A stretch of 64,000 bases of DNA from an uncultured SAR86 cluster bacterium (lineage in GTDB: Bacteria > Pseudomonadota > Gammaproteobacteria > Magnimaribacterales > AG-339-G14), in NCBI GenBank assembly GCA_902635045.1, contig CACPMT010000001.1:280993-344992 (forward strand). Reading direction: 5' to 3'. This document shows positions 32,765 through 40,070 of this stretch, in pieces. Numbering within the stretch: position 1 is the first letter of the stretch; each line of letters starts with the position of its first letter. Position numbers and translations under genes: made by a program. The notes beneath the pieces are model-generated. The model saw nothing but the letters and a program-made list of their open reading frames with translations. It searched no databases and was not told where the DNA came from.

Positions 32765-34216
32765 TTATTCTAAAGTTGTTGCGCCCATTAAATGAAGATC
32801 TACTTCTCTAGCTGCAGCTCGACCTTCATTGATAGCCCAAACGACCAAAGACTGACCTCTGCGACAATCACCTGCAGCAAAGATTTTCGGATGAGAAGTT
32901 TTATGAACATTGTGCTCTGCTTTGAAGTTAGATCTTTCATCAAGCTCTAGATTTAAGTGTTCGTTCAGATAATGCTCTGGACCTAAAAAGCCCATTGCCA
33001 AGAGAATTAAATCAGCTTTCCAAATCTTTTCAGTATCAGGTATTTCTTTGAAGTCTTTGTCGACCTTGACAGTTTTGATACCAGTTAATTTACCATTTTT
33101 ATCTCTAAGGAATTCTTTACCCGATACAGAGTATTCTCTTGGATCTTTACCGAAAACTTCTCTAGATTCTTCATGACCATAATCAACTTTGTAAATCCTT
33201 GGAAAAAGTGGCCAAGGATTATTATCCATTCTTTCCGAAGGTAATTCAGGAAGGATTTCGAAATTAGTCAAAGTCTTACAGCCGTGCCTCAAAGATGTTC
33301 CTAAACAGTCGTTTCCTGTATCACCGCCACCGATGACGATAACATCTTTTCCTTTGGCATCAATGTAATCATTTTCTTTAAGTTCGTGATCAAGCAAACT
33401 TTTAGTATTTTGACCCAAAAACTCCATCGCAAAATATACACCAGCTCCTTCTCTATTTTTAATAGGCAGATCTCTAGGTTTGGTTGCGCCAGTTGACAAT
33501 AACACTATGTCGTTATCATTCACTAAAGCTTCCATAGAAATTGAATTTTCTCCGGTTCCGCCGACGTCAGTATTAACGTGAAATTTTATTCCCTCTTCTT
33601 CCATTATTTCGGTACGCATATCAATAATTGATTTATCTAATTTCATATTCGGTATGCCATACATCATTAGGCCACCGATACGATCAGCTCTTTCATAAAC
33701 TTCAACGTTATGACCAACGCTATTTAGTTGCTGGGCTGCTGAAAGACCCGCTGGTCCCGAACCCACGATGGCTATTTTTTTATTTGTTCTTTTCTTTGGC
33801 GGATTGGCTTTTATCCAACCAGATTCGATGCCTTTATCAGCGATAGCAAATTCCAGATTCTTTATTGCAACTGGTGTTTCAGTTATACCAAGTACACATG
33901 CACCTTCACAGACGGCGGGACAAACTCTTCCAGTAACTTCTGGAAAGTTGTTGGTCTTCATTAAACGATGAAAAGCCTCTTCCCACTTTTCGTTGTAAAC
34001 TAAATCGTTCCACTCAGGTATTAAGTTGTAAACTGGGCAGCCTTCACCAGATTGACAGAAGGGTACACCGCAATTCATGCATCTTGAAGCTTGAGTTCCT
34101 AAAAGAGGTTCATCGTGGTCAGTATAGATTTCTTTGAAATCTAGAATTCTCTTTTTTGCAGGTCGATAAGGTTCTACCGCTCTATCAAATTCTTTAAATC
34201 CTGTTACTTTTCCCAT
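32765..34216 (-). CDS. gltD: Glutamate synthase small subunit
   Basis: GltD feeds NADPH electrons through FAD to the large subunit, which makes two glutamates from glutamine and 2-oxoglutarate. The N-terminal region has the cysteine clusters that hold the 4Fe-4S centres (CMNCGVPFCQ and CPVYNLIPEW; later CPAVCEGAC). The FAD site is VGSGPAGLSAA and the NADPH site is VIGGGDTGNDC. Length 483 is normal. It follows gltB by 3 bases on the minus strand. Its stop is 3 bases from the end of the convergent COG0523 gene. Confidence 0.96.
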   Translation of the reverse strand: MGKVTGFKEFDRAVEPYRPAKKRILDFKEIYTDHDEPLLGTQASRCMNCGVPFCQSGEGCPVYNLIPEWNDLVYNEKWEEAFHRLMKTNNFPEVTGRVCPAVCEGACVLGITETPVAIKNLEFAIADKGIESGWIKANPPKKRTNKKIAIVGSGPAGLSAAQQLNSVGHNVEVYERADRIGGLMMYGIPNMKLDKSIIDMRTEIMEEEGIKFHVNTDVGGTGENSISMEALVNDNDIVLLSTGATKPRDLPIKNREGAGVYFAMEFLGQNTKSLLDHELKENDYIDAKGKDVIVIGGGDTGNDCLGTSLRHGCKTLTNFEILPELPSERMDNNPWPLFPRIYKVDYGHEESREVFGKDPREYSVSGKEFLRDKNGKLTGIKTVKVDKDFKEIPDTEKIWKADLILLAMGFLGPEHYLNEHLNLELDERSNFKAEHNVHKTSHPKIFAAGDCRRGQSLVVWAINEGRAAAREVDLHLMGATTLE

Positions 34217-34219
34217 ATT

Positions 34220-37200
34220 TTAACTAGCTTTTAATTTTTTTTGATCCATTTCTTGAAGAACTCTTTTGTAATCGGTTGGCATTACTTTAGAAAAATGTTT
34301 GATTTCTTTTTTCCAATTCAAAAGAATTTTTTCAGCTACTGTAGATTTAGTATATTTGTAATGATTACTAATTAGTTCTTTCAATTCATTTATGTCTTCT
34401 TTTATAACCAAATCTTCTAATTCAAATGTGCTCGTATTGCATTTCTTAATGAAATTTCCTTTTGGATTATAAACATAAGCAATACCGCCGCTCATTCCAG
34501 CACCAAAGTTTCGACCAGTTTCTCCTAAGATCACTGCTCTACCTCCAGTCATGTATTCACAACCATGATCACCAATGCCCTCTACAACTACACGGGCACC
34601 GCTGTTTCTGACACAAAACCTTTCAGCAGCTATGCCTCTAAAATAAGCTTCACCATCGGTCGCTCCATATAAAGCAACATTGCCGAGCAATATATTTTCT
34701 TCAGGAACAAAATGACTATCTCTTGGCGGATAGATGATAATTTTTCCTCCAGACAAGCCTTTTCCAACAAAGTCATTAGCGTCGCCTTCAAGGTTAAGAG
34801 TCATGCCTTTGGTAATCCAGGCGCCAAAACTTTGACCTGCAGAACCTTCTAAATTAATTTTTACAGTATCATTTGGAAGACCTTTTGCGCCCCATAATTT
34901 AGAGATTTCGTTTGAAATAATGGTTCCGAAAACCCTATTTATGTTGCCGATTTTCATATTTATATTAATTCTCTGTCTATTAACGATGTTGCTTTTAATG
35001 GTCTTAAACAAAGCCATGTCTAAAGAATTTTCCAAATTATGATTTTGTTCTTTGGTATTGAAGACCTCGGTATCTTTGTAAACTATCTCTGCTGGCGTGA
35101 GAATTTTAGAAAGATCTAACCCGTCTCGTTTCCAATGATTTAAAGCTTTTTCCATCTCTAAAAGATCTACTCTACCAATCAGATCATTCACTTTTTTAAT
35201 TCCTAACTTAGCCATGATCATTCTCAATTCTTTCGCAACCATAAAGAGGTAGTTCACAACATTTTCTGGCTTGCCATGGAATTTTTTTCTCAGTTCTTCA
35301 TCTTGTGTCGCAATTCCCACAGGGCATGTATTCAAATGACACTTTCTCATCATAATGCAACCTAAAGTGACTAGAGGAGCAGTAGAAAAACCGAATTCTT
35401 CGGCACCCAAGATGGCAGCAATGGCAACATCTCTTCCAGTTTTCAATTGTCCGTCGGTTTGTAGGACAACCCTAGATCGGAGATTGTTCATGACCAAAGT
35501 TTGGTGAGTTTCAGCTATGCCAAGTTCCCAAGGGAGACCAGCATGCTTAATAGAAGTTAGAGGAGAGGCGCCTGTGCCCCCATCATGACCAGCAATAACT
35601 AGATGATCCGTTTTTGCTTTGACCACTCCCGATGCAATGGTTCCGACACCTATCTCAGATACCAATTTGACACTTATTCTAGATGCACGATTGGCGTTTT
35701 TTAAATCATGGATTAATTGAGCTATATCTTCAATGGAATAAATGTCGTGATGAGGAGGCGGGCTAATTAAGCCTACACCAGGAGTTGAGTGTCTTATTTT
35801 TGCAATGTAATCGTCGACTTTGGTTCCAGGCAATTCTCCACCTTCACCTGGTTTTGCGCCTTGAGCAATTTTAATTTGTAGTTCATCGGAGTTAGTTAAA
35901 TACCACATCGTCACACCAAATCTTCCAGATGCAACTTGTTTAATGGCAGATCTTTTTGATTCACCGTTTTCAAGTGGTTTAAATCTAATTGGGTCTTCAC
36001 CGCCTTCACCTGTATTAGATTTCCCACCTAATTTGTTCATAGCCAGAGCCAATGACTCATGAGCTTCAGTTGAAATTGAACCTAGAGACATGGCACCGGT
36101 AGCAAATCTTTTAACAATTTCTTTTTCGCTTTCAACTTCTTCTAAAGGGATAGGATCTTTTGCATACTTGAAACTCATCAAGCCTCTTAAGGTGCTATTC
36201 TTGGTTGTTTGTTCATTGGCATGATTTGAAAAATTCCAATAAGCAGATTCATCGTTATTTCTTGAAGCCAGCTGCAGTGCAGAAATTGATTTAGGATCCC
36301 ACATATGTGAATCACCGCCATTGCGCCAATGATAATCTCCAGGATTAGGGAGAGTTGTGACTGAATCAGGTTTAATTTTTGGAAAACCAATAGAGTGTCT
36401 TCTTTCAACTTCCTCTGAAAGTACGTCAAAATTAACTCCTTGAACTCTGCTTGGTGTACCAGGGAAAGATTTCTCAATAATTTCATCGGCAAGTCCAACA
36501 GCTTCAAATATTTGACCGCCTTTGTAGGATTGAAGCGTTGAAATACCCATTTTTGCCATAACTTTTAGCATCCCTTTTGCGACACCTTTTTTGTAAGCCT
36601 TAACCAAATCTTTTGAATTTCTTAACGCCTTATCTTTTAGTGCGCCATCTTTTAATGACTTACTTAGAACGTCAAAAGCCAAATAAGGGTTAATTGCATC
36701 AGCACCGTAGCCAATTAATAAACAATGGTGGTGAACTTCTCTAGCTTCTCCTGATTCTAAAATAATACCTATTTGAGTTCTTTTTTCTTTAGTTACCAAA
36801 TGATGGTGAACTGTTGAACAAGCTATAAGAGAACTGAGAGCAATTCTATTTGCATTTATTTCCCTATCGGATAAAACAATAAAGGAAAAACCATTCTTGA
36901 TTGCTTCTTCAGATTCTTTACAAATTCTGTTGAGGGCTTTTATTAGTCCTTTGCTCCCGTTTTCTTTTTCATAAGTTATGTCTATAGTTTTCGTTCGCCA
37001 ACCTTGGGTTTGAAGATTTTTAATCTTCAAAAATTCTTCATTTGACAAGATAGGATGCTGCAATCTCAGACGGTGAGCATTTTCTTTTTCAGTTGATAAA
37101 AGATTGCCTTCAGGACCGATTAGGCATTCTAATGACATAATGACTTCTTCTCTGATTGAATCGATCGGAGGGTTTGTTATTTGAGCAAACAACTGTTTAA

Positions 37201-38767
37201 AGTAGTCATAAATCATCCTTGGTTTATCTGACAGACAAGCTAGAGCAGCATCATTTCCCATGGAGCCTAAAGGGTCTCTAAGTTCTGTTACTAATGGAAG
37301 TAACATAAATTCAAGAGTTTCCGTGGTGTAACCAAAGGCTTTCATTTTGGAAATTAAATCTTTAGTTAATGGTGGATTTTTATTAGTTTTTAGATCTTTC
37401 AAATCTACTATTTGACTTTTATTCCATTCTTTATAAGGGTGCTGACTAGCCACTTGATTTTTAATTTCTTCATCTGGAATTAATCTACCTTTTTCAAAGT
37501 CAATCAAAAACATTTTTCCTGGCTGAAGTCTTCCTTTCTTTAAAACTGACTTGGAATCGACAGGCAAAACACCAACCTCCGAAGCCATGATAACTTTGTC
37601 ATCGTTGGTAACGTAGAATCTGCTAGGTCTTAAGCCATTTCGATCTAAAACAGCCCCAACTTGAGTACCATCGGTGAAAACTATTGAAGCTGGACCATCC
37701 CAAGGTTCCATCAATGAAGAAGAGTATTCATAAAATTCTCTTTTTTTCTTCGACATTTCTTTATCGTTTTGCCAGGCTTCTGGAATCATCATCATCGCTG
37801 CTTCAGGAAGTTTTCTTCCTGACATTATTAGAAGTTCCAGGACATTATCGAAACTCCCCGAATCTGAACAATCAGCTTCTGCAATCGGGAAAAGTTTCTT
37901 AATTTTGTTTCCAAAAAGTTTGCTCGCTGCCTTGCCTTGACGGGCACGCATCAGATTTACATTTCCTTTGAGTGTATTTATCTCTCCGTTGTGACACATG
38001 TATCTGCAAGGCTGAGCTCTATCCCAAGATGGGAAAGTATTGGTACTGAATCTTGAATGAACCATAGCAAGATGAGTTTCAAAATTAGAGTTTTCTAAAT
38101 CTGGGAAAAAAGGGAACAATTGACCGGGTGTAAGCATTCCTTTGTAAACAATGAGTCGAGACGACAAACTACAAGCATAAAGCATTAGTCCTTGAGACAG
38201 GTTTTCGTTATACCTTAGACGGTCACTAAATATTTTTCTGATTAAATATAGTTTTCTTTCAAAGGCATCTTGATCTAAGTTTTTTGAACTACCAATAAAA
38301 ATCTGTTCCATAAAGGGTTGGCACTCCTTAGCTGCTGGACCCACATTGGCCTTTTTAGAGTCTGTTGGCACTTTTCGCCAGCCCAAAAATTGTTGTCCTT
38401 CTTTAGAGACTACTTCTTCAATAACTTTTTTACATTTTTCTCTTTCATTAGCCTTTTGCGGAAGGAAAATATTTCCGACAGCATATTTCCCCGAATTTGG
38501 TAAAGATATTTTTAATTTCTTAGATTCTTCTTGAAAAAAAGAATCTGGTAAAGCCATCAAGATACCTGCTCCATCCCCAGTATTTTCCTCAAAACCACAC
38601 CCGCCTCTATGATCCATTCGGGAGTTAATCAAATAAGCGTTTTCCATAATCTCTCTAGAGGGAACGCCTTTGATATTAGCAACTAAACCAACTCCGCAAG
38701 AATCCTTTTCGAATTCCGGATCATAAAGACCAGATTTAACTGGGCGTTGTTTTAAAAATCTACTCAT
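34220..38767 (-). CDS. gltB: Glutamate synthase large subunit
   Basis: At about 1,515 residues this is a full-length GltB. The N-terminal glutaminase begins at the catalytic Cys in DSCGVGLVANIKG, about 24 residues in, after a short propeptide. The synthase FMN domain includes GHDGGTGASPLTSIKHAG, and the 3Fe-4S cysteines lie in CIMMRKCHLNTCPVGIAT. The C-terminal beta-helix (GXXGG repeats such as GRAVILGETGRNFGAGMSGG) is present. The start is taken at ATG 38767; a GTG at 38776 in frame is possible. The long upstream region carries a promoter, a tandem repeat and a palindrome. Confidence 0.97.
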   Translation of the reverse strand: MSRFLKQRPVKSGLYDPEFEKDSCGVGLVANIKGVPSREIMENAYLINSRMDHRGGCGFEENTGDGAGILMALPDSFFQEESKKLKISLPNSGKYAVGNIFLPQKANEREKCKKVIEEVVSKEGQQFLGWRKVPTDSKKANVGPAAKECQPFMEQIFIGSSKNLDQDAFERKLYLIRKIFSDRLRYNENLSQGLMLYACSLSSRLIVYKGMLTPGQLFPFFPDLENSNFETHLAMVHSRFSTNTFPSWDRAQPCRYMCHNGEINTLKGNVNLMRARQGKAASKLFGNKIKKLFPIAEADCSDSGSFDNVLELLIMSGRKLPEAAMMMIPEAWQNDKEMSKKKREFYEYSSSLMEPWDGPASIVFTDGTQVGAVLDRNGLRPSRFYVTNDDKVIMASEVGVLPVDSKSVLKKGRLQPGKMFLIDFEKGRLIPDEEIKNQVASQHPYKEWNKSQIVDLKDLKTNKNPPLTKDLISKMKAFGYTTETLEFMLLPLVTELRDPLGSMGNDAALACLSDKPRMIYDYFKQLFAQITNPPIDSIREEVIMSLECLIGPEGNLLSTEKENAHRLRLQHPILSNEEFLKIKNLQTQGWRTKTIDITYEKENGSKGLIKALNRICKESEEAIKNGFSFIVLSDREINANRIALSSLIACSTVHHHLVTKEKRTQIGIILESGEAREVHHHCLLIGYGADAINPYLAFDVLSKSLKDGALKDKALRNSKDLVKAYKKGVAKGMLKVMAKMGISTLQSYKGGQIFEAVGLADEIIEKSFPGTPSRVQGVNFDVLSEEVERRHSIGFPKIKPDSVTTLPNPGDYHWRNGGDSHMWDPKSISALQLASRNNDESAYWNFSNHANEQTTKNSTLRGLMSFKYAKDPIPLEEVESEKEIVKRFATGAMSLGSISTEAHESLALAMNKLGGKSNTGEGGEDPIRFKPLENGESKRSAIKQVASGRFGVTMWYLTNSDELQIKIAQGAKPGEGGELPGTKVDDYIAKIRHSTPGVGLISPPPHHDIYSIEDIAQLIHDLKNANRASRISVKLVSEIGVGTIASGVVKAKTDHLVIAGHDGGTGASPLTSIKHAGLPWELGIAETHQTLVMNNLRSRVVLQTDGQLKTGRDVAIAAILGAEEFGFSTAPLVTLGCIMMRKCHLNTCPVGIATQDEELRKKFHGKPENVVNYLFMVAKELRMIMAKLGIKKVNDLIGRVDLLEMEKALNHWKRDGLDLSKILTPAEIVYKDTEVFNTKEQNHNLENSLDMALFKTIKSNIVNRQRININMKIGNINRVFGTIISNEISKLWGAKGLPNDTVKINLEGSAGQSFGAWITKGMTLNLEGDANDFVGKGLSGGKIIIYPPRDSHFVPEENILLGNVALYGATDGEAYFRGIAAERFCVRNSGARVVVEGIGDHGCEYMTGGRAVILGETGRNFGAGMSGGIAYVYNPKGNFIKKCNTSTFELEDLVIKEDINELKELISNHYKYTKSTVAEKILLNWKKEIKHFSKVMPTDYKRVLQEMDQKKLKAS

Positions 38768-38833
38768 ATTTGGCACACATTACAGACTAACTGTAGAGAT
38801 GTTGTAAAATGCCCTTTTTACGCCTGGCAAGCG

Positions 38834-38883
38834 TCACTTTTAATGCATGTGATATGCATCACTTTTAAAGCATGTGATATGCA
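38834..38883. repeat. Two-copy 25-bp tandem repeat upstream of gltB
   Basis: Two abutting 25-base units (38834-38858 and 38859-38883) differ at one position only (T at 38844, A at 38869). Each contains GCATGTGATATGC, a dyad with GCAT arms around GTGAT. Read on the gltB strand as RNA, each unit can also fold as a GCAUAUCAC / GUGAUGC-type hairpin. The block lies about 67-117 bases before the gltB ATG, and just downstream of the predicted transcription start near 38888. It could be a double operator or a tandem leader RNA element. Confidence 0.85.
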
Positions 38884-38894
38884 TTAACAGATAA

Positions 38895-38923
38895 ATATTA
38901 TCTTTTAACTAGAAAAGTGTCGA
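38895..38923 (-). promoter_or_regulatory. Probable gltBD promoter
   Basis: On the minus strand TCGACA (38923-38918; 5 of 6 matches to TTGACA) and TAATAT (38900-38895; 4 of 6) are 17 bases apart. The same -10 hexamer and spacing are seen upstream of the P-II gene in this window. Transcription would start near 38888, giving a leader of about 120 bases that contains the tandem repeat. Confidence 0.45.
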
Positions 38924-38941: not shown

Positions 38942-38958
38942 TGCACTAATTGAGTGCA
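38942..38958. promoter_or_regulatory. TGCACT-N5-AGTGCA palindrome upstream of the gltBD promoter
   Basis: TGCACT and AGTGCA form perfect 6-base arms around five bases. The 17-base geometry TGCAC-N7-GTGCA equals the known NtrC-binding consensus layout. It is centred near -62 from the predicted gltB start. NtrC control would tie gltBD to nitrogen status, but no ntrBC gene is in the window and other dimeric regulators could bind such a site. Confidence 0.45.
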
Positions 38959-38990: not shown

Positions 38991-40070
38991 TTATAAATTT
39001 ATGCTTTTAAGGACTAAGTCTTCAGGCGGATCTTCAGTAATTTCAGCACTTCCAAGGCCTCTAAGGGTTATGAATCTTAATTTCTTATCCAATATCTTTT
39101 TATCTCTACTCATCGCTTCAATAAAATCATTCACATCAAAATTTTCAGGAAGTTTATGGGGCAAACCTGCTGATTTGACTAAATTTTTTACTCTTTCAAA
39201 CTCCTCAGAAGATATTTTTTTTAATAAAAACGATAAATGGGATGCACAAATCATTCCCAACCCCACAGCTTGACCATGTGAAAAACCTTCAAGTGACTGA
39301 ATCGCTTCAAATGCATGGCCGTATGTATGTCCAAAATTTAGCAAAGCTCTATCGCCTTTTTCCTTTTCATCATTTGAAACAACGAATGCTTTGATTAAAG
39401 AGCTTTCATAAACAATTTGTATAAGATCTTCGTCTGATAATTCATTGTTGTTGGAAAAAATATTTTCCAATTTAGTAAATAAATTTTTATCCGCAATCAA
39501 AGAATGTTTGATAATTTCAGCAATACCGTCAGTAAAATTAGACTTTGAAAGTGATTTCAAACAATCTATGTCCATTAAAACAAGTTTTGGCTGATAGAAA
39601 GCTCCAATATTATTTTTTGAACCAGCAAAATTTATTCCGGTTTTACCTCCGATCGCTGCATCGACTTGCGACAGAAGAGTTGTGGGAATTTGAATCAAGT
39701 CAACTCCTCGTAAATAAGAGGCAGCAACAAAACCAACCATATCTGTTGTAATTCCTCCCCCAAGACCAATAAGAAGACAATCTCTATTAAATTTATTTGT
39801 ATTCAAAACTTCAAATATTGGTAATAAACCTTCAAAGCTTTTAGTTTTTTCATTAGTTTCAATTTCTAAAATTTTAATTTCCATGGGCTGCGAGTTTGAA
39901 AGAGCGTTACGCAAGGTTTCTAAAATTTCATTTGGCACCATTGAATCTTTTACTATTAAAATCTGACGATTTTGTACCAACCACTTAAAATTGTAATTAC
40001 CAAGTAATTTACTTCCTATTAGGACTTCATAGTCGCCGGAAGGAGTTCTGACGTTAATCGATTTAGACAT
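38991..40070 (-). CDS. aroB: 3-dehydroquinate synthase
   Basis: AroB converts DAHP to 3-dehydroquinate, step two of the shikimate pathway, using NAD and a divalent metal. The NAD-binding GLGGGITTDMVGFVAASYLRG, the DAAIGGKTGIN segment, and the metal ligands around NFGHTYGHAFE are visible. Length 359 is normal. It overlaps aroK by 8 bases. Between aroB and gltB, where many gammaproteobacteria carry a damX-like SPOR gene, only a 223-base regulatory region remains. Confidence 0.95.
   Translation of the reverse strand: MSKSINVRTPSGDYEVLIGSKLLGNYNFKWLVQNRQILIVKDSMVPNEILETLRNALSNSQPMEIKILEIETNEKTKSFEGLLPIFEVLNTNKFNRDCLLIGLGGGITTDMVGFVAASYLRGVDLIQIPTTLLSQVDAAIGGKTGINFAGSKNNIGAFYQPKLVLMDIDCLKSLSKSNFTDGIAEIIKHSLIADKNLFTKLENIFSNNNELSDEDLIQIVYESSLIKAFVVSNDEKEKGDRALLNFGHTYGHAFEAIQSLEGFSHGQAVGLGMICASHLSFLLKKISSEEFERVKNLVKSAGLPHKLPENFDVNDFIEAMSRDKKILDKKLRFITLRGLGSAEITEDPPEDLVLKSINL

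Follow-up and report, generated by a model that had tools for sequence, protein, structure and literature searches.

The gltBD leader and its tandem repeat

The window analyzed here is a stretch of 64,000 nucleotides from an uncultured SAR86 cluster bacterium (contig CACPMT010000001.1, positions 280,993–344,992 of the forward strand). It contains the gltBD operon, which encodes the large and small subunits of glutamate synthase (Table 1). In the leader of this operon, two 25-mers (38834–38858 and 38859–38883) abut each other on the gltB strand and differ by a single mismatch. As described below, comparison with relatives supports well the assignment of this repeat as two of three consecutive putative H-type pseudoknot modules at the 5′ end of the gltBD mRNA.

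The near-perfect 25-bp tandem repeat picked out by an earlier, sequence-only reading of the window was borne out. The TRF program ranked 38834–38884 (period 25, 96% matches) as the top-scoring tandem repeat of the window, and abutting 25-mers with one mismatch at most were found in none of 20 Markov-1 random windows matched in length and composition. The repeat sequence occurs once in the genome. The GCAT-GTGAT-ATGC dyads are real and present in each unit, and the repeat does lie just downstream of the predicted transcription start, which the −35/−10 pair puts near 38888. The 223-base control region claimed in the same reading is obtained (∼223 nt) only if the in-frame ATG is taken as the gltB start; with the conserved GTG, the gap to the upstream gene is 214 nt. 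The upstream gene, identified from its sequence as aroB, ends at 38991.

Table 1. Features of the gltBD operon and its leader in the window
Feature	Position	Strand	Details
gltD, small subunit	32765–34216	−	Same operon as gltB; assigned by sequence inspection
gltB, glutamate synthase large subunit	34220–38776	−	Start GTG 38776, in-frame ATG 38767; start compared across relatives
Start-codon hairpin, 3′ arm GUAAUGUG	38776–38783	−	Final base doubles as the first G of the GUG start codon
Start-codon hairpin, 5′ arm CAUUUUAC	38804–38811	−	C38811 and A38810 also belong to the module 3 S2 strand
Module 3, diverged	38810–38833	−	S1 CGCU/GGCG; S2 UGCC (38829–38826)/GGCA (38813–38810)
Module 2	38834–38858	−	S1 UGCAU (38858–38854)/AUGCA (38848–38844); L1 A38853; S2 UCAC (38852–38849)/GUGA (38837–38834); L3 UUAAAA
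Module 1	38859–38882	−	S1 GCAU (38882–38879)/AUGC (38873–38870); L1 A38878; S2 UCAC (38877–38874)/GUGA (38862–38859); L3 UUUAAAA
Predicted −10 TAATAT	38895–38900	−	−35 TCGACA at 38923–38918, spacer 17; kept in genus members
Upstream dyad TGCACT-N5-AGTGCA	38942–38958	−	Spaced like an NtrC site; kept in g1 and g3

Pseudoknot modules and covariation

The module is 25 nt in size; it contains one 5-bp stem (S1), one single-base loop (L1), one 4-bp stem (S2) and the linker L3, UUAAAA. S2 pairs the last four bases of the 5-nt hairpin loop with the tail that follows the linker. Two models were built, R1 for two modules and R2 for a single module; R2 was run over 203 genomes of the SAR86 order, in which genera are labeled g1–g4 and families f1–f4. 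Modules 1 and 2 of the window match R2 with 35.6 bits and 36.0 bits (E 1.8e-6 for module 2), respectively, and both are supported by covariation across modules; module 1 is also kept in relatives. Module 3 matches weakly (13.9 bits, E 0.51), and an aligned third module exists in relatives.

Absence of the repeat from close relatives, which the sequence-only reading had named as evidence against its proposal, was not observed: each of the eight genomes in the window's genus carries the module once or twice, together with the third unit. All gltB leaders read in g1–g3 contain two or three modules, of two types. Module A is GCAU-N-UCAC-AUGC-NNN-AAAA-GUGA; module B is CGCAU-N-GUCC-AUGCG-UUAAAA-GGAC or GGGC in most relatives, and has diverged to CGCUUGCCAGGCG-UAAAAAG-GGCA in the window (module 3). 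The g1 members closest to the window possess two A and one B, as do three g3 members; one A and one B are present in two g1 members and in most of g2 and g3. Within family f1, R1 matches the gltB leader alone (25 of the 40 family genomes).

The first module alignment, made within family f1, showed little variation; modules of other families were added afterwards. With 16 modules, the covariation score was 0.645, compared to 0.172 ± 0.036 in shuffles. Among 48 distinct modules, 97.7% of the pair cells are standard pairs, against 72.7 ± 1.5% after shuffling and at most 41% with slid partners; S1 and S2 are paired in 97.5% and 97.9% of the cells, respectively, as expected of an H-type pseudoknot. 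Cells with both sides changed number 106 (33.6 ± 4.8 in shuffles), and six of the nine pairs, three in S1 and three in S2, show compensatory changes. S2 occurs as UCAC/GUGA, GUCC/GGAC, CUCC/GGAG, UAAC/GUUA, AGUC/GACU, UCUC/GAGA, UCGC/GCGA, CAGC/GCUG and CCCC/GGGG. A DNA operator would keep base identity in its dyad, whereas S2 and the outer S1 bases vary freely, in pairs. The sequence-only reading had suggested comparing relatives for conserved dyads versus compensatory base pairs; the compensatory changes in both stems place the element on the RNA side, and the covariation argues strongly for an RNA rather than a DNA operator.

To avoid dependence on S2, 84,980 species were scanned with a control pattern that fixes only the inner S1 bases, the linker and the spacing (TTAAAAG, CAT-N5-ATG, TTAAAAG). 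Of the 58 stretches retrieved, all those from the SAR86 order have four of four S2 pairs, and none of those from other organisms do. The pseudoknot is asserted from covariation and not from energy, because energy folding gives competing nested hairpins. The nested hairpin that the sequence-only reading had drawn is indeed present in the minimum-free-energy fold; the conserved structure is the H-type pseudoknot instead. As an inter-unit structure, this hairpin was rejected as the general one, because many relatives carry only one unit of that type.

Downstream of the modules, a predicted hairpin (CAUUUUAC/GUAAUGUG), kept in the family, ends on the first base of the gltB start codon. In eight variants, 85.9% of its cells are paired, compared to 21–50% with slid partners, and one pair is changed on both sides, which gives modest support. 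When the module 3 strand was blocked during folding, the start codon became more accessible in most leaders of g3 and of the L031 type, slightly so in g1 and hardly in g2.

On the other side of the repeat, the upstream dyad has what we take to be a likeness to the NtrC consensus. Measured from the promoters assigned here, it is centered at about −62 in g1 and about −40 in g3, as expected of an activator site.

Occurrence beside glutamine riboswitches and in other genomes

In the sister genus g4 of the same family, the glutamine-I riboswitch (RF01739, 63–65 bits) occupies the place in the gltB leader where g1–g3 have pseudoknots. Across the SAR86 order, RF01739 is found in 101 of the 203 genomes at E ≤ 0.01, with 81 above the cut-off. 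Of the 44 R2 sites with E < 0.008 in families f2–f4, 43 have an RF01739 match next to them, as counted by comparing the two match lists by eye; the sole exception, in genome G167, has no riboswitch nearby. The sites read contain one to three modules, located 48–130 nt 5′ of RF01739 on the same strand. Such combinations precede glnA (two loci), glnII (eight loci), genes of Gcw_chp proteins (seven loci) and a TonB receptor gene (five loci). In family f4, R1 gave weak matches in 13 genomes, at a constant place directly 5′ of RF01739. The modules are conserved structured RNA in the 5′ untranslated regions of metabolically coherent genes, as is generally expected of riboswitches, and their link to nitrogen is well supported.

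Several other leaders were noted during the survey. At locus L110 (G000:C5:58857-58939, minus strand), a glutamine riboswitch that scores below the threshold (29.9 bits) and has a greatly expanded P3 precedes a YRG peptide of 54 aa, which matches DUF4278 weakly (E 0.00027); the same arrangement is present in genus g2 and family f2. Five gltB leaders of family f2 share a different sequence, ∼CCUGCGCAACUCUCAG...CUGAGGGUCCACAACCCAC, right after a TACAAT −10; it has no Rfam match and is possibly another structured RNA. Two glnII leaders contain degenerate modules, one of which retains CUCC/GGAG and has lost its S1 partner. R2 matches outside leaders, mostly coding (36 loci, E ∼0.001–0.05), were rejected as chance; nearly all are without S2 complementarity.

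The modules are also present outside SAR86. A search of 398 genomes of the phylum with R2 identified a tandem pair in one genome (G907), and a search of its SAR11-like order added six more strong sites. The pairs read ACCAU-U-UCAC-AUGGU-UUAAAA-GUGA followed by CCGAU-C-UAC-AUCGG-UUAAAA-GUAG; two further genomes combine UCUC/GAGA with UCGC/GCGA. This order is probably Pelagibacterales, judging from SAM-V riboswitches in three of nine genomes tested, genome sizes of 0.8–1.5 Mb and pelagiphage relatives of a 67-aa open reading frame (ORF). The arrays lie shortly 5′ of the start of ORFs of 63–68 aa or 48 aa. These ORFs, which directly follow the arrays, are uncharacterised; their C-terminal NANGT..Y..K.G.NKGK is common to proteins of many pelagiphages. 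For the small ORFs after arrays, Pfam gave no match, and neither NCBIfam nor PDB gave a convincing one. The C-terminal half of the 67-aa ORF has homologues in 23 phage records, mostly of pelagiphages, and eight of these phage loci were read and showed no pseudoknots. One of the small ORFs may resemble cyanobacterial glutamine-synthetase-inactivating factors.

In contigs of viral collections, two to four modules precede ORFs of 29–41 aa; in three marine viral contigs (L268, L273 and L278), four tandem modules stand before a 29-aa basic ORF. By sequence inspection, genes of T4-type phage appearance lie beside the arrays in L265, L269 and L278, and sdhB-like genes are present on other array contigs (L260–L266), which may be cellular. 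Two of the viral leaders were searched in named phages and gave no match.

Proposed function and relation to known systems

Taken together, these observations point to a cis-acting tandem pseudoknot leader RNA, which probably reports nitrogen status. In the mechanism we propose, the array that opens the gltBD mRNA would sense nitrogen status in cis, and additional copies (one to four per leader) would make the response steeper. Since the last module abuts the start-codon hairpin, making or breaking its pseudoknot would set translation initiation; an ON switch operated through a stabilised module 3 is plausible on the folding results. The sequence-only reading had proposed, as one of two options, that a tandem leader RNA senses the status of glutamine or nitrogen. 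The tandem leader RNA and the nitrogen link stand, on the compensatory changes, the constant orientation, the replacement in g4 and the riboswitch adjacency, whereas the sensing of glutamine is a more tentative reading. The exchange with glutamine riboswitches and the adjacency to them favour a metabolite, with glutamine first; we lean towards binding of a small molecule by the array and regard glutamine as the leading, though tentative, candidate for the ligand. The modules could then possibly constitute a third natural class of glutamine riboswitch, made of 25-nt pseudoknot beads, one to four per leader. Such a class would be common to SAR86, the SAR11-like order and marine phages of T4-like type, and would either take the place of glutamine-I or be stacked on it; we put this forward with some reserve.

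Several points weigh against this interpretation. The modules share descent and hence are not independent samples, and the R2 matches were partly selected with the model itself, though the model excluded S2 pairing. The start-codon hairpin has modest support and overlaps module 3 by just two bases or so, and in g2 blocking the module 3 strand does not free the start codon. The one-base L1 and the zero-length L2 leave little obvious space for a ligand pocket. Finally, the modules co-occur with the glutamine riboswitch in two SAR86 families, where a second glutamine sensor would be redundant.

Among other explanations, recognition of the modules by an RNA-binding protein of host or phage, which represses or stabilises the mRNA, is the strongest, although we consider it unlikely. 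It has a model in gp32, which binds a pseudoknot of its own mRNA. The small repeated modules, with an invariant frame of AU/AU, C and AAAAG and otherwise free sequence, look like protein sites; arrays are present in T4-like viral contigs too, and protein binding was argued by Weinberg et al. (PMC2864571) for the simple tandem elements mini-ykkC and pan. The adjacency to riboswitches at 43 of 44 sites and the replacement in g4 point instead to a metabolite signal, and no candidate protein came up, although no search was aimed at one. Less probable still is a constitutive 5′ element, whose pseudoknots would shield the mRNA from decay or offer the ribosome a standby site and would sense nothing. 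In all leaders read, no other conserved structured element comes between the promoter and the modules, and the copy number varies from one to four, both of which would suit such a role; however, the arrays are limited to nitrogen-assimilation genes, neighboring uptake genes and small ORFs and do not accompany highly expressed genes generally, and base identity is kept well past what stability needs. A double operator, which the sequence-only reading had also allowed and in which a dimeric transcription factor would bind each 25-bp unit, is very improbable: despite the GCAT-N5-ATGC dyads at 25-bp spacing, the CRP-like TGTGA-N6-TCACT across the unit junction and the further dyad upstream, compensatory changes in loop and tail alter the sequence while pairing is maintained, the CRP-like junction is present only where two copies abut, the orientation is constant, and the repeat lies inside the predicted transcript.

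Few bacteria of the ocean are as abundant as SAR86 and SAR11, and SAR11 is not known to possess the usual PII/Ntr nitrogen regulators. A tiny pseudoknot RNA that both share, and that is linked with glutamine synthetase, glutamate synthase and glutamine riboswitches, would partly explain nitrogen sensing in streamlined marine bacteria and in their phages. If ligand binding by the tandem pseudoknots is true, they would be among the smallest natural aptamers, and their bead-like copies would provide a natural series for how tandem copies shape a response.

Known systems resemble the modules in part. Like the modules, glutamine-I (the glnA RNA) is often in tandem and accompanies glutamine synthetase, glutamate synthase and nitrogen genes, it occupies the same gltB leader site in g4, and it is adjacent to modules in other SAR86 families. 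However, it is ∼53 nt in size and forms a three-way junction with a loop E, and its conserved sequence is absent from the 25-nt module; RF01739 (more than 35 bits required) gave no match at the window leader, with the g4 gltB leader as control. Glutamine-II (Downstream-peptide, RF01704) is pseudoknot-based and stands before very short ORFs, like the SAR11-like arrays, and it acts close to the start codon as an ON switch (PMC6698751). Different from the module, it is a single unit of ∼50 nt that contains the elements CGUUCA and GGAACGGG as well as a separate P1 stem-loop, and RF01704 matched neither the window (E ≤ 5) nor the leaders of relatives (E ≤ 1). The STAXI motif shares with the modules a pseudoknot in two or three tandem repeats (PMC2864571). 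UUCG tetraloops, frequent inside its repeat, are absent from the modules, it is located beside DNA-manipulation genes, and it has no Rfam match in the window or the leaders of relatives. PreQ1-I and SAM-II/SAM-V are likewise small pseudoknots of the H-type in which an A-rich loop crosses S1, and SAR11 uses SAM-II/SAM-V in tandem; they differ in larger loops with a ligand pocket and in other conserved bases and gene sets, and no Rfam match links them to the modules. For the window leader itself, Rfam returned only a chance match to U4 (E 2.5), and no description of the module was found in Rfam 15 or in the literature searched, a search that left subscription papers and preprints outside. Relative to these sources, the tandem pseudoknot leader RNA is best read as a new class.
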